DNA of 64,000 nucleotides. Origin: Leifsonia sp. TF02-11 (GTDB taxonomy: Bacteria > Actinomycetota > Actinomycetes > Actinomycetales > Microbacteriaceae). The DNA lies in NCBI RefSeq assembly GCF_017565305.1, contig NZ_JAGEKP010000014.1:124001-188000 (forward strand). Direction: 5' to 3'. A program made the position numbers and the translations under genes. The notes beneath the pieces are model-generated. The model was not told where the DNA came from. It made no database searches and saw nothing but the letters and a program-made list of their open reading frames with translations. Shown piece after piece: positions 11,086 to 15,314 of this stretch (the stretch's first letter is position 1; each line of letters opens with the position of its first letter).

Positions 11086-12123
11086 CTACAGCTCGTTCTG
11101 GCGGGGGATGACCACCTGCTTGATGATGAGCAGGATCGCCGCCGCGAACGGGATGGCGACGAGGGCACCGAGGATGCCCAGGAGGGTTCCGCCCGCGAGG
11201 GCGGCCACCACGACGAGGGCGCCCGGGACGGACACCGCCCGGTTCATGATGCGCGGGCTGAGGACGTATGCCTCCACCTGCATGTAGGCGAGGTAATAGA
11301 TGGCGGCGGCGATCGCGGTCGGCGGTCCGGAGAGGAAGCAGACCGCGACGATGATCACCGAACCGGTGATCGTGCCGACGAGCGGGATCAGCGAGAAGAA
11401 GAACGCGATCGACGCGAGCAGGATCGGGAACTTCGCGCCGATGATCGTCAGGAAGATCGCGCTCAGGACGCCGTTGACCAGAGCGAGCGACACCTGACCC
11501 ATCACGTACTTGCCGACGGAGTCGGTGATCTGGTCGCCGAGGTCGGCGAACCGCGAGCGGCGGGAGGCCGGCACGAGCTGGTAGGCGGCCCGCTTGATGC
11601 TGGGCAGCGAGGCCGTGAAGTAGATCGTCAGGATGACCACGATGATCACGCCGAAGGCGCCCTGCACGATCCCGATGCCCGTCTGCAGCACCTTGGAAGT
11701 GATGTCGGGGAGGTTCTTCTGCAGCCAGTCCGTGACGGCGTTGATGTTCTGCTGGTTGACGATCGTCGGGAACTGGTGCTGGAGGCTGAGGAACCACGAC
11801 TCGGCCCCACCATTGTTCACCCAGTTGATGGTGTTCTGGACGAGCTGACTGGCCTGGCCGACCGCGACCGGGACGATCGCCCAGATCAGCGCGACGAACA
11901 GGCCGAGGATGACGACTAGGGTCAGGACGAGCGCGAGCCAGCGCGGGAACTTGCGCCGCTCGAGGAACGCGATCGACGGCTCGATGCCTAGCGCGAGGAA
12001 TAGCGCGGCGCCGATGTAGGTGATGATCGTGGCCAGGCTGACGATCGAGGTGAGGATGAGATAGCCGAGCCCCACTCCGAGAGTGCCGATCAGCCCCACG
12101 CGAAACGCGTTCTGGATCTTCAC
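11086..12123 (-). CDS. AI-2E family transporter (PerM-like membrane protein)
   Basis: A 345-residue membrane protein of the AI-2E exporter superfamily. Members export or exchange varied small molecules or ions, so the name should not be taken as proof of AI-2 transport. About eight helices are visible: three at the N-terminus (about 10-75), a soluble part (about 85-140: VGQASQLVQNTINW...), then a helical C-terminal half with SLIPLVGTITG and GILGALVAIPFAAAI, the family's conserved ends. The GTG start has GGAGGGGG upstream. The gene lies 41 bases behind the giant coiled-coil gene on the same strand, so they probably share a transcript. Confidence 0.82.
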   Translation of the reverse strand: MKIQNAFRVGLIGTLGVGLGYLILTSIVSLATIITYIGAALFLALGIEPSIAFLERRKFPRWLALVLTLVVILGLFVALIWAIVPVAVGQASQLVQNTINWVNNGGAESWFLSLQHQFPTIVNQQNINAVTDWLQKNLPDITSKVLQTGIGIVQGAFGVIIVVILTIYFTASLPSIKRAAYQLVPASRRSRFADLGDQITDSVGKYVMGQVSLALVNGVLSAIFLTIIGAKFPILLASIAFFFSLIPLVGTITGSVIIVAVCFLSGPPTAIAAAIYYLAYMQVEAYVLSPRIMNRAVSVPGALVVVAALAGGTLLGILGALVAIPFAAAILLIIKQVVIPRQNEL

Positions 12124-12164: not shown

Positions 12165-15100
12165 TCAGTCGTCGGCTGACACCTTGTCTGCCGCCTGGAG
12201 CATACCCCGCAGGTTCTCGAAGTACCCGGCCACGGCCTCGCGCTCAATCCTAATCTGGGAAAGGCGCTCCTCCGCGTCGGCGATCAGGCGTTGCGTGCGC
12301 TCTTCCGCTTCTGCGACGAGTGCATCCGCACGCTCCTGGGCGTCGCGCACGATCTCGGCGGCCGCTTTCTCGGCGTCCTTGCGTGCCGCCTTCACGGTCT
12401 GACGCGCTTCTGTGTCGAACGTCTCGGCCTCGGTACGCGCCTGAGCGGTGCGCTTGACCGCGTCGGCGAGCTGTACGTTGGCCTCGTCGAGGTACTTCTG
12501 GGTCTGGGCGACGGCTTCCTGGTGGCGGGCGAGGTACTCCTTCTCCGCCTCGTCCCGCCGGGCGCGGAGCTCGACGTCGAGGTCGATCCTCGCCTGCTCG
12601 ATCTCGTGCGTGCGCTTGTCGAGCTCGGCCACCGTCGCCGTGCGGAGAGCGGTGAGCTCGGCGTCGAGCGCTGCACGCGCGGTGGCGTCCTCCTGGTCGA
12701 AGGCGGCCTGGCGCTCGGCGAGCTCGGCATCCAGCGCCGTGCGCGCCTCGGCCGATTCGCGGGCGATCTCGGCTCTGGCCTTCGCCGTCTCGGCGTCGAG
12801 AGCCACCCTGGCGCGCTCGGTCTCCTCTGCGAGGGTCACCCTGGTCTGCTCGGCCTCGCGCTCGAGTTCGAGGCGCTGCTGCTCGCGATCGTTCCTCAGC
12901 TCCTGCTCGGTGGTCGCCCGCTGGTCGGCGAGCTCTGCCGTGATGCGCTTCGTCTCGGCGGCGAGCGTGCTGCGCGTCTGCTCACGGTCGTCGGCGAGAC
13001 GGGACCGGGTCTCCTCCGCCTCGGCGGCGAGGGCGGATTTGGTCTGCTCGACCTCGGCGGCGAGCGCGGACTTGGTGGTGGTGACCTCGGTCTCGAGGGC
13101 GGATTTGGTCTGCTCGACCTCGGCGGCGAGGGCGGACTTGGTGGTGGTGACCTCGGTCTCGAGGGCCGATTTGGTCTGCTCGACCTCCGCGGCCAGTGCG
13201 GACTTCGTCTGCTCGACCTCCGCGGCCAGCGCGGTCCGGGTGGTGACGACCTCGGTTTCGAGGGCGGACAGGGTCTGCTCCTTCTCGGTCGCCAGGCGAA
13301 CGGCGGTCTGGTCGACGTCGGCGGCCAGCTTCGCGCGCGTGGTGGCGACCTCGGCGGCGAGAGCGCTGCGCTCGGTCGCGAGCTCCTCGGCGAGTGCGGT
13401 CCGTGCCTCGCCGACCTCCGCTGCGAGATCCGCCCGGATGCGCTTGGCCTCCGTGTCGACCTCCTTGCGCTGCGCGTCCACCTCGGCGGCGAGCTCGGCG
13501 CGGGTGGTCGCGACCTCGTCGGCGAGGGCGGCCTGGGCCGTCTCGACCTCGGTCGCCAGGTCGGCACGGGTCGTCTCCACCTCGGCGGCGAGTGCCGCCT
13601 GGGTGGTCGCGACCTCGGTCGCAAGCTCGGCCCTCGCGGTCTCGACCTCCTTCGCGAGCGCGGAGCGGGTCTTCTCGACCTCCTTCGCCAGCGAGGCCTG
13701 GGTTCGCTTGACGTCGGCGGCGAGCGCGGCCTGTGTGCTCTCGACCTCGGCCGCGAGATCGGAACGGGTGCGCTCGACGGTGTCGGCGAGCTCCGCCGCC
13801 GTGCGCTCCCGGTCGGCGGCCAGCTGGGCGCGGGTGTTCTCGACCTGGGTCGCGATCTCGTTGGCGGTGCGGTCGCGGTCGGCGGCGAGGGTCGCCGCGG
13901 TCGAGATGCGGTCGGCCTCCAGCGCGGCGCGGGTCTCCGTCGTCTCGCGCTCGAGGGTCGAGCGGGTCTGGAGGACCTCGTCGGCGAGCTCCTTCCTGGT
14001 GCGCTCCACCTCGTCGGCGAGCGCCGAGCGGGTCGTCGTGACGTCGGTCTCGAGCTGCGAGCGCGCGGCGGTGACGTCGGCTTCCAGCTGCGCCCTGGTG
14101 GTCGTGACCTCGTCGAGGAGTGCGGACTTGGTGCGGGTCACTTCGTCGGCGAGCTCGCTCGTGGTGCGGGCGACCTCGTCGGCCAGTGCCGACTTCGTGG
14201 TCGTCACCTCGTCGGCCAGGCGCGCCTTGGTCTGCTCGACCTCCGCGGCCAGAGCACTCTTGGTCTGCTCGACCTCTGCCGCGAGGGAGGTGGTGGTCTG
14301 CGAGACGTCATCCGCCAGCTTCTGCCGTGCCGTGGCGTCCTCGTGCTGGAGGTCGGCGCGCGTCTGCGCGGCCTCGGCCGCAAGGGCGGCGCGCTGCCGC
14401 TCCACCTCGTCGGCGAGCTCTGCGCGGGCCTGTGCGATCTCGGCCGCGAGAGCGTCACGCGCGGCGGTCTCCTCCGCAGCGAGCCGGTCAGCGGTCTCTG
14501 CGACCTTCTTGTCGAGCTCCAGGCGGATCTGGGCCGACTCGCGCTCGAAGGCGGCCCTGTCGCCCGCGAGCGCGTTCTCGAGCTCGCTGCGGCGGGCGGC
14601 GATGGTGCGGTCGAGCTCGGCGGTCTCCGCACGGGCGGCCTCGGCCTCGCGGAGGGCGACGGCCTTGAGCTCCGCCGCCTCGCGGTCGGCCTCTGCGCGG
14701 ACCGCTGCGGCCTCGCGCTTGCTGGTGGCGCGCAGCTCGGCGGCCTCGGTGGCGACGGCCCCGCGGATGGCGGCGGCCTCGCGCATGGCGTCGGTGAGGA
14801 GGGTCTCTTTGTCGGCGCGGGTGCGTGCGAGCAGCTCCGCCGATTCGATCTGGGCGTCCTCGAGCGCCGTCGTCGCGCGCGCCTGGGCGTCGGCCAGCAC
14901 CCGCTCCGCCTGGAGCGCCGCCGTCTTCTTGATCTTCTCGACCTCGGCGGTGACGCCGGCGCGCAGCTTCTCGGCGTCGATGTCGGCCTGCGCGATCAGT
15001 CGCGTCGACTGCTCCTCTGCGACGCGGAGGGTGTTCTCGAGCTTCGTGCCGAGGCCCGAGTAGGTGGGGCTGCCGACCTCTTCGATCTCGGCGTTGAGCT

Positions 15101-15260
15101 CGTCGATCCGCAGCTGGAGCCGCTTGAGCTCCTTGGCCTGGTCGGCGGACTGGGTGTTGGACTTGATCAGCTCGCGCCGGAGCTCCTGGACGGCCTTGTC
15201 CACCTCGTCCTTGTCGTAGCCGCGGAAGACCTGCGTGAAGTTGGATTCATCGGTGGCCAC
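12165..15260 (-). CDS. Giant DivIVA/Scy-like coiled-coil protein built from 58 hendecads
   Basis: A 1031-residue protein with almost no Trp, Cys or Gly after residue 75. Residues 8-30 match a DivIVA-type start (FTQVFRGYDKDEVDKAVQEL), as in actinobacterial polar-growth scaffolds DivIVA/Wag31, Scy and FilP. Residues 75-261 are Ala/Glu/Arg-rich helix; 262-899 form exactly 58 contiguous 11-residue repeats (typical AEVEQTKSALA); 900-1031 return to mixed coiled coil ending ADKVSADD. An 11-residue period favours a straight or slightly right-handed rod; as one helix the repeat part alone would be about 95 nm. It is probably a cytoskeletal or polarity scaffold, by analogy with Scy/FilP. The GTG start has AGGAG upstream. 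The long opposite-strand frames are composition artefacts. Confidence 0.85.
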   Translation of the reverse strand: MATDESNFTQVFRGYDKDEVDKAVQELRRELIKSNTQSADQAKELKRLQLRIDELNAEIEEVGSPTYSGLGTKLENTLRVAEEQSTRLIAQADIDAEKLRAGVTAEVEKIKKTAALQAERVLADAQARATTALEDAQIESAELLARTRADKETLLTDAMREAAAIRGAVATEAAELRATSKREAAAVRAEADREAAELKAVALREAEAARAETAELDRTIAARRSELENALAGDRAAFERESAQIRLELDKKVAETADRLAAEETAARDALAAEIAQARAELADEVERQRAALAAEAAQTRADLQHEDATARQKLADDVSQTTTSLAAEVEQTKSALAAEVEQTKARLADEVTTTKSALADEVARTTSELADEVTRTKSALLDEVTTTRAQLEADVTAARSQLETDVTTTRSALADEVERTRKELADEVLQTRSTLERETTETRAALEADRISTAATLAADRDRTANEIATQVENTRAQLAADRERTAAELADTVERTRSDLAAEVESTQAALAADVKRTQASLAKEVEKTRSALAKEVETARAELATEVATTQAALAAEVETTRADLATEVETAQAALADEVATTRAELAAEVDAQRKEVDTEAKRIRADLAAEVGEARTALAEELATERSALAAEVATTRAKLAADVDQTAVRLATEKEQTLSALETEVVTTRTALAAEVEQTKSALAAEVEQTKSALETEVTTTKSALAAEVEQTKSALETEVTTTKSALAAEVEQTKSALAAEAEETRSRLADDREQTRSTLAAETKRITAELADQRATTEQELRNDREQQRLELEREAEQTRVTLAEETERARVALDAETAKARAEIARESAEARTALDAELAERQAAFDQEDATARAALDAELTALRTATVAELDKRTHEIEQARIDLDVELRARRDEAEKEYLARHQEAVAQTQKYLDEANVQLADAVKRTAQARTEAETFDTEARQTVKAARKDAEKAAAEIVRDAQERADALVAEAEERTQRLIADAEERLSQIRIEREAVAGYFENLRGMLQAADKVSADD
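12564..14477. repeat. Array of 58 degenerate 33-bp units encoding hendecads
   Basis: 1914 bases, exactly 58 x 33, encode residues 262-899 of the coiled-coil protein with no insertion or deletion. Units at about 13030-13210 are nearly identical and also form a 66-bp higher-order pattern, the sign of recent expansion; units toward both ends have diverged. Confidence 0.9.
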
Positions 15261-15314
15261 TGTGTTACTCCTGAAGGGGATTCCGGGTGAGCGAGCCGCG
15301 CGCGCGCCGCATCG

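Follow-up and report, generated by a model that had tools for sequence, protein, structure and literature searches.

The window analyzed here is a stretch of 64,000 nucleotides from Leifsonia sp. TF02-11 (family Microbacteriaceae, genus Leifsonia; assembly GCF_017565305.1, contig NZ_JAGEKP010000014.1, positions 124,001 to 188,000). On its minus strand it carries a gene for a putative scaffold protein of 1031 residues, much of which consists of repeats of 11 residues (hendecads). The locus raises the question of which family such a protein belongs to and whether the length of its rod has a meaning. An earlier note, made from the letters of the window, had drawn attention to the repeats and to a DivIVA-like N-terminus; it did not give the strand and it overlooked the kinship with FilP, the leucine-centred core, the occurrence of the array throughout the family and the quantised length. 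On the basis of sequence comparisons we conclude that the scaffold is best read as a FilP relative in which a hendecad array lies between FilP-type ends.

A gapless array of 58 hendecads

Residues 262-899 divide into 58 units of 11 residues without a gap, as the earlier note had stated. Against 200 shuffles of the array, identity at lag 11 was 0.466 (z 29), and neither a heptad period (lag-7 identity 0.101, z -2.3) nor the 51-residue period of Scy-type repeats (lag-51 identity 0.107, z -1.7) was found. The spectrum of large hydrophobic residues had a power of 12.4 at 3/11, 0.004 at 2/7 and 0.013 at 14/51, the highest power at any frequency among 500 shuffles being 1.9. The period was 3.667 for the array alone and peaked at 3.663 for residues 131-971 (lag-110 z 13), and the phase along the protein stayed at about 69-129 degrees over residues 199-900, weakly defined after 760. 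Neither 7 nor 51 residues is a dominant period of the window protein, in agreement with the pure array first proposed. From residue 216 to 898, in steps of 11 through Leu227, 62 of the 63 unit centres carry L, I, V or F, and the 13 positions of the same series between 73 and 205 carry only K, Q, D, E or R; the array therefore starts sharply and the count of 58 units is conservative.

When the positions of each unit are lettered a to k, 57 of the 58 units carry Leu, Ile, Val or Phe at h, 33 have Val at a, 37 have Thr and 11 have Ala at d, 54 have Glu or Asp at k, and 42 have Arg or Lys at e. At three turns per 11 residues, the hydrophobic stripe is centred on h, with a and d offset from it by 33 degrees on its two sides and k and e, which are opposite in charge, by 65 degrees. 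The least regular part is residues 757-899, where the hydropathy phase is weakly defined (power 0.6-1.1) and all h positions except T876 are hydrophobic. Among the roughly 3,930 hendecads of 131 family proteins, L, I, V, M or F occupies h in 91%, D or E occupies k in 83%, and K or R occupies e in 73%. The array of the window protein contains no proline and a single glycine, its net charge is -56, and its stripe is narrow (3 of 11 positions). Opposite charges on the flanks of a narrow stripe would fit a coiled coil with salt bridges between chains rather than a lipid-facing helix. Axial charge periods along the units gave weak values only (lag correlations within about 0.2). The array length of about 95 nm proposed earlier holds (638 x 0.15 nm), but the rod should not be called straight: under the conventional calculation a period of 11/3 (3.667) would give a slightly right-handed supercoil, with a pitch of about 54-75 nm for a 3.63-3.64 helix, and the 51/14 (3.643) of Scy is closer to straight.

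The description of the inner units as nearly identical applies only within residues 691-745, where 33- and 66-base units are repeated and where all three unit pairs with at least 90% DNA identity are found; elsewhere it fails, the mean DNA identity between array units being 0.545. Adjacent units with the same amino acid share its codon in 178 of 292 cases, which is the chance level (176.6 expected). The array is not a recent duplication as a whole: its amino-acid pattern has been kept and its silent sites have been randomised, and slippage should therefore be rare. The nearest tree row, Leifsonia shinshuensis DP-L11, also has 1031 residues, with 56 substitutions and no indels.

Head and tail compared with FilP and Scy

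The DivIVA-like N-terminus was borne out by TIGR03544 (23.5 bits, cut-off 22), and the head scored below the cut-off of Pfam DivIVA (19.2 bits, cut-off 28). The RGYDxxEVD motif is present near the N-terminus, and the head alignment profile (A1) matched GpsB 4UG3 (E 1.8e-4) and DivIVA 2WUJ (E 9.3e-4) over about 50 aligned residues. A single DivIVA-like head followed by a long hendecad rod, a probable coiled coil judging from its sequence, corresponds to the plan of the actinobacterial FilP/Scy group, described as one such head and then a coiled-coil rod of variable length (PMC9858780). None of the relatives lacked the head, a weak test because the relatives were collected through it.

In a search of the phylum the head profile matched 125 of 296 genomes. 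In Streptomyces-type genomes, recognised by adjacent filP- and scy-like genes in five loci, it found the FilP-type gene at E 1.8e-25 to 2.5e-24 (eight genomes); for the Scy-type gene nearby, listed in five genomes, the values were no better than 3.5e-7 to 2.7e-5. By this comparison the head is clearly nearer to FilP than to Scy. The tail profile reached about 1e-11 with order-level FilP-type proteins and about 2.5e-6 near the C-terminus of Streptomyces-type FilP, E-values that apply to a target set of small size, where rods of Scy score as well; the tail would thus be FilP-like more weakly than the head. A glyoxalase-fold gene adjoins the scy/filP-type genes in L178, the only one of the five loci checked for neighbours. 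The glyoxalase fold is the fold of methylmalonyl-CoA epimerase. Such a neighbour fits the surroundings of Scy given in PMC9858780.

The head profile found one copy in the genome of the window, a count that is uncertain since genome searches can miss genes and the whole-genome DivIVA search missed the small DivIVA-repeat gene of the window (43 bits). A protein database word search with residues 1-262 (8000 candidates) returned nothing at E 1e-3; the protein itself was also unlisted there and close relatives were later found, so this result is not evidence of absence. Matches to ZorA in PADLOC and to PspC and CsgB in NCBIfam look like chance similarity of coiled-coil or low-complexity sequence and were set aside. 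In 15 Cryobacterium proteins (L095, L097, L098, L100, L104, L106-L109, L113, L115-L117, L119 and L129) the last Asp of GYDxxEVD is replaced by Ala, Ser or Thr; this Asp is described as forming a hydrogen bond across the dimer (PMC9858780).

Two cores in one rod

The composition of the core was compared by placing residues according to local hydropathy phase, a method that favours high-hydropathy residues at the centre and that gave Ala centres elsewhere in the same proteins. Ala made up 0.68-0.76 of the stripe-centre positions in five Scy-type proteins and 0.58-0.60 in two proteins of the FilP type; in the window protein its share over residues 66-215 was 0.47. In residues 262-899, by contrast, the centre was L, I, V, M or F at 0.56 and Ala at 0.07. 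The Ala-rich core that runs along the whole FilP rod is therefore found in residues 66-215 and missing from the array, which makes the rod a mosaic. Taken alone, residues 757-899 gave a weak signal (L/I/V/M/F 0.28, Ala 0, Thr 0.22). The same inversion was observed across the 131 family proteins, with an Ala-centred N-terminal rod in 130 and an L/I/V/M/F-centred array in 128.

A Val-Leu pattern is also found in dimeric heptad coils. According to the argument of PMC9858780, hendecads can pair as dimers only if their axial residue is small, and otherwise the oligomer is larger. Because the axial residue is large here, the array may have more than two strands.

Length is quantised across the Microbacteriaceae

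The gene was found in all 24 relatives of the same genus and in 37 of 40 genomes overall, the window's own included, and the head gave a match in 203 of 249 family genomes (E 1e-3). Open-frame lengths from the genome search (up to 1683 residues) can run upstream of the start, and frames from fetched stretches were shorter; because open-frame lengths overstate the protein, only anchor-to-anchor distances were used. The first set comprised 92 rows after removal of L086 and L132 (early stop), L123 (contig end) and ten exact duplicates. In this set the head-to-tail distance took 19 values, with at least 19 changes on a quick tree of the conserved ends, and a clade of 51 rows from several genera was fixed at a distance of 502. 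Five order-level loci (L057, L059, L060, L063 and L065) served for comparison only. The orthologue frames of L086 and L132 end at 251 and 193 residues, which may be a real break or an assembly error.

A further 40 loci were hand-picked from the 203 matching genomes for spread of genera, with long frames favoured, and are not a random sample; the anchor patterns were widened twice for them, so that 31, then 37 and then 40 could be measured. Since L187 duplicates L144, a total of 131 distinct family proteins was obtained, the window protein included. Measured with slightly different anchors from those of the first set, they showed 47 head-to-tail distances between 353 and 1006 residues. Modulo 11, these distances fell into class 1 (93 proteins), class 5 (37) and class 0 (1). 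The two main classes differ by four residues, that is, by a stutter, and L222 (distance 495) is the only protein outside them. On the joint tree the distance changed at least 51 times and its modulo-11 class four times, whereas the stretch between tail anchor and stop, which served as a control, changed 36 times and its class 33 times. The register of the array relative to the head was identical in 126 of the 131 proteins. The earlier suggestion that length may vary between strains thus holds between species, the level that was compared.

The arrays of the 131 proteins alone had a median period of 3.664, and the lag-51 z of the 122 proteins with an array of at least 140 residues had a median of 0 and a maximum of 1.6. 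In the shortest relatives the whole rod peaked nearer to 51/14 (3.644 in the 482-residue form, 3.652 and 3.654 in the 537-residue forms), and lag-51 z did not exceed 1.8. We attribute this peak to the shift in phase where the Ala-centred end meets the array.

Proposed function and alternative readings

The protein is probably the Microbacteriaceae form of FilP, an intermediate-filament-like, DivIVA-headed scaffold of the pole or septum whose rod has been lengthened by pure hendecads between FilP-type ends. From its sequence we infer the following arrangement of helix, oligomer and location. The DivIVA-like head would pair and would anchor the protein, at the pole or septum, to curved membrane or to DivIVA. 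A single continuous coiled coil of about 100 nm, almost straight and with a slight right-handed twist, would be formed by the array, for a whole rod of nearly 150 nm versus the 37 nm reported for FilP. The conserved C-terminal part would bind a partner or join rods into filaments. Because a hendecad makes exactly three turns in the coil frame, the addition or removal of whole units would shift the length in steps of 1.65 nm while leaving the hydrophobic stripe intact and the tail at the same angle about the rod axis with respect to the head. Inside the cell, such a scaffold may serve as a strut or ruler of adjustable length.

Several observations weigh against this identification and against a ruler. 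The head gave no match in 46 of the 249 family genomes, and the five Streptomyces-type scy-filP loci share no gene with the window among the seven neighbours tested. Leu stands at the stripe centre of the array where FilP and Scy have Ala, and the oligomer may not be a dimer. Furthermore, the tail profile fails to separate FilP from Scy: on whole sequences four of the five Scy-type proteins scored better than FilP (E 1.2e-9 to 2.9e-7, with 1.5 for the remaining one), because the Scy rod matches in many places, and the best single stretch was in the middle of the Scy rod (20.0 bits versus 18.4 for FilP). Low-complexity helices inflate similarity. Finally, tandem duplication of 33-base units accounts for some of the quantisation without any selection on length, and with such a mutational source quantisation alone is no proof of a selected length.

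Rod length could accordingly be neutral, with unequal crossing-over adding or removing 33-base units, the coil needing only to stay in register, and no length being selected, a reading compatible with a scaffold and contrary to a ruler. On the one hand, the 33- and 66-base repeats at residues 691-745 and the 47 different lengths are what it would predict. On the other hand, a clade of several genera holds exactly one length, the nearest species shows no indel in 1031 residues, and the units share little DNA identity, with silent sites at chance. The fixed length in 51 species, together with the absence of indels relative to the nearest species, argues for selection on length, and we regard neutrality as somewhat unlikely. 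In the opposite direction, the Microbacteriaceae might possess a new kind of rod, a Leu-centred pure hendecad with E/R salt-bridge flanks and three or four strands, used as a ruler by which each lineage fixes the distance from pole-bound head to C-terminal partner as a whole number of 1.65-nm units; in this full form the proposal is unlikely.

That the array is instead a single-stranded amphipathic helix on membrane or lipid, like apolipoprotein A-IV, perilipin 4 and group 3 LEA proteins, seems very improbable to us, even though Pfam Apolipoprotein scored 93.4 bits (cut-off 90), a comparison of the whole protein with solved structures gave just three matches at E 0.01, two to apolipoprotein A-IV and one to apolipoprotein E, and an 11-residue period is common to apolipoproteins and the array. 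Apolipoproteins have a wide hydrophobic face bordered on each side by basic residues (class A) and consist of 22-mers punctuated by proline. This pattern was not found in the array, which has a narrow stripe, E/D on one flank and R/K on the other, a negative net charge, a single glycine and no proline, and which follows a FilP-type head and N-terminal rod. Quite unlikely, too, is that the protein works like Scy as a tip-organising hub joining DivIVA and ParA. It shares with the five Scy-type proteins (1250-1373 residues from the RGY motif region on) a similar length and plan, and the tail profile scores Scy rods as well as FilP, but Scy has a period of 51/14 instead of 11/3 and an Ala-centred core, and the head profile prefers FilP. 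Moreover, nearly all Scy orthologues are reported to be encoded beside filP (PMC4255298), whereas the head profile found one copy in this genome, with the proviso on such searches given above.

The family offers a natural length series in which the two anchors stand 353 to 1006 residues apart while the register is maintained and the ends are conserved. With it one could test whether selection acts on the length of bacterial cytoskeletal rods and how the oligomer responds to a large axial hendecad residue, and it gives a handle on cell organisation in Microbacteriaceae. Hendecads have been called largely unexplored (PMC9858780). We found no paper on a pure-hendecad, Leu-centred or quantised rod in Microbacteriaceae in the open-access literature (weak evidence of absence, as subscription journals lay mostly outside it), and no experimental FilP paper on this family in the literature searched.

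Gene layout and neighbourhood

The coordinates of the gene, its parts and its neighbours are given in Table 1. The AI-2E transporter gene and the scaffold gene are probably co-transcribed. The 999-residue open reading frame opposite the array is probably an antisense by-product of GC-rich repeated codons, and a trap for gene finders.

Table 1. Features of the scaffold locus in the window
Feature	Position	Strand	Remarks
Scaffold coding sequence, 1031 residues	12165..15260	-	GTG start; stop 12165-12167
AGGAG, likely ribosome-binding site	15268..15272	-	7 bases ahead of GTG; read by eye
DivIVA-like head, residues 1-65	15066..15260	-	FRGYDKDEVD at 12-21; TIGR03544 above cut-off; structure profile matches
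N-terminal rod, residues 66-217	14610..15065	-	Ala-centred stripe like FilP and Scy; conserved block around SGLGTKLENTLRVAEEQST at its start
Four extra units, residues 218-261	14478..14609	-	share the array register; missed in earlier count; register analysis
Hendecad array, residues 262-899, 58 units	12564..14477	-	Leu-centred, E/D at k, R/K at e; period and register analysis
Residues 691-745, 22-residue/66-base period	13026..13190	-	only unit pairs with at least 90% DNA identity; DNA comparison of units
Conserved C-terminal part, residues 900-1031	12168..12563	-	contains EREAVAGYFENLRGML; invariant columns; tail profile
AI-2E family transporter gene	11086..12123	-	conserved neighbour, 41 bases downstream of scaffold gene
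Divergent conserved neighbour, 630 residues	15447..17339	+	weak SCO2278-type lipoprotein similarity
Second DivIVA-domain protein, 182 residues	8583..9131	+	
Transglycosylase-like neighbour, 236 residues	9197..9907	+	conserved
Open reading frame, 999 residues	12291..15290	+	opposite the array; rejected

The neighbourhood is largely conserved in Microbacteriaceae. Among the 124 loci searched, which include some duplicates and many that are too short to show every neighbour, we found the 630-residue neighbour in 108, the AI-2E transporter in 107, a hydrolase in 105, the transglycosylase-like gene in 92, a thioredoxin-TPR gene in 82 and the PolyDIV-type gene in 74; in other families, one or two of the seven neighbours also occur at a small number of loci. 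The 630-residue protein has no Pfam match, and its C-terminal half weakly resembles SCO2278-family lipoproteins (44 bits, cut-off 210). The transglycosylase-like protein shows sub-cut-off similarity to phage lysozyme and transglycosylase and a Pro-Thr linker. The 182-residue DivIVA-domain protein (TIGR03543 217.9 bits, cut-off 154.2; four TIGR03544 stretches) looks like a member of the PolyDIV group of PMC9858780. Its gene lies 3 kb from the FilP relative; PolyDIV clusters are placed mostly near UMP kinase in the same source.

Comparison with known systems

Apolipoproteins A1/A4/E (PF01442) resemble the array in their amphipathic 11-residue period and in the Pfam score above cut-off, and differ from it in charge pattern and proline content; the head of the window protein is DivIVA-like. 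DivIVA/Wag31 shares the FRGYD..EVD head, but the Wag31 equivalog NF050102 gave 24 bits against a cut-off of 260, and a separate probable DivIVA gene lies on another contig of the genome.

Scy of Streptomyces is similar in its more than 1000 residues, lag-11 repeats and RGY head. Scy is reportedly built of a 51-residue repeat of hendecads and heptads, a description attributed to Walshaw 2010, and the contrast drawn with it in the earlier note was sustained. The five Scy-type proteins have a period of 3.642, with lag-51 z of 4 to 7 and no rise at lag 110, in clear contrast to the 3.663 of the window protein. Their phase rotates continuously along the chain, whereas that of the window protein is held over residues 199-900, and their stripe is Ala-centred where the array is Leu-centred.

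FilP of Streptomyces shares the DivIVA-like head, the Ala-centred rod and, more weakly, the C-terminal part. It differs in size (312 and 317 residues in two trimmed proteins), in lacking a long pure-hendecad array and in its gene neighbourhood. FilP, annotated as a cellulose-binding protein (PMC9858780), is described as a 37 nm rod, with parallel dimers proposed, that forms striated filaments and is recruited by DivIVA (PMC6599971). The spacing of the FilP striations is reported as about 60 nm. FilP-type proteins of widely differing length, Micrococcales included, have already been published (PMC9858780), and FilP orthologues in simple actinobacteria have been noted (PMC4255298). Set beside these systems, the scaffold appears to be a real, unusually clean variant of the FilP-type rod.

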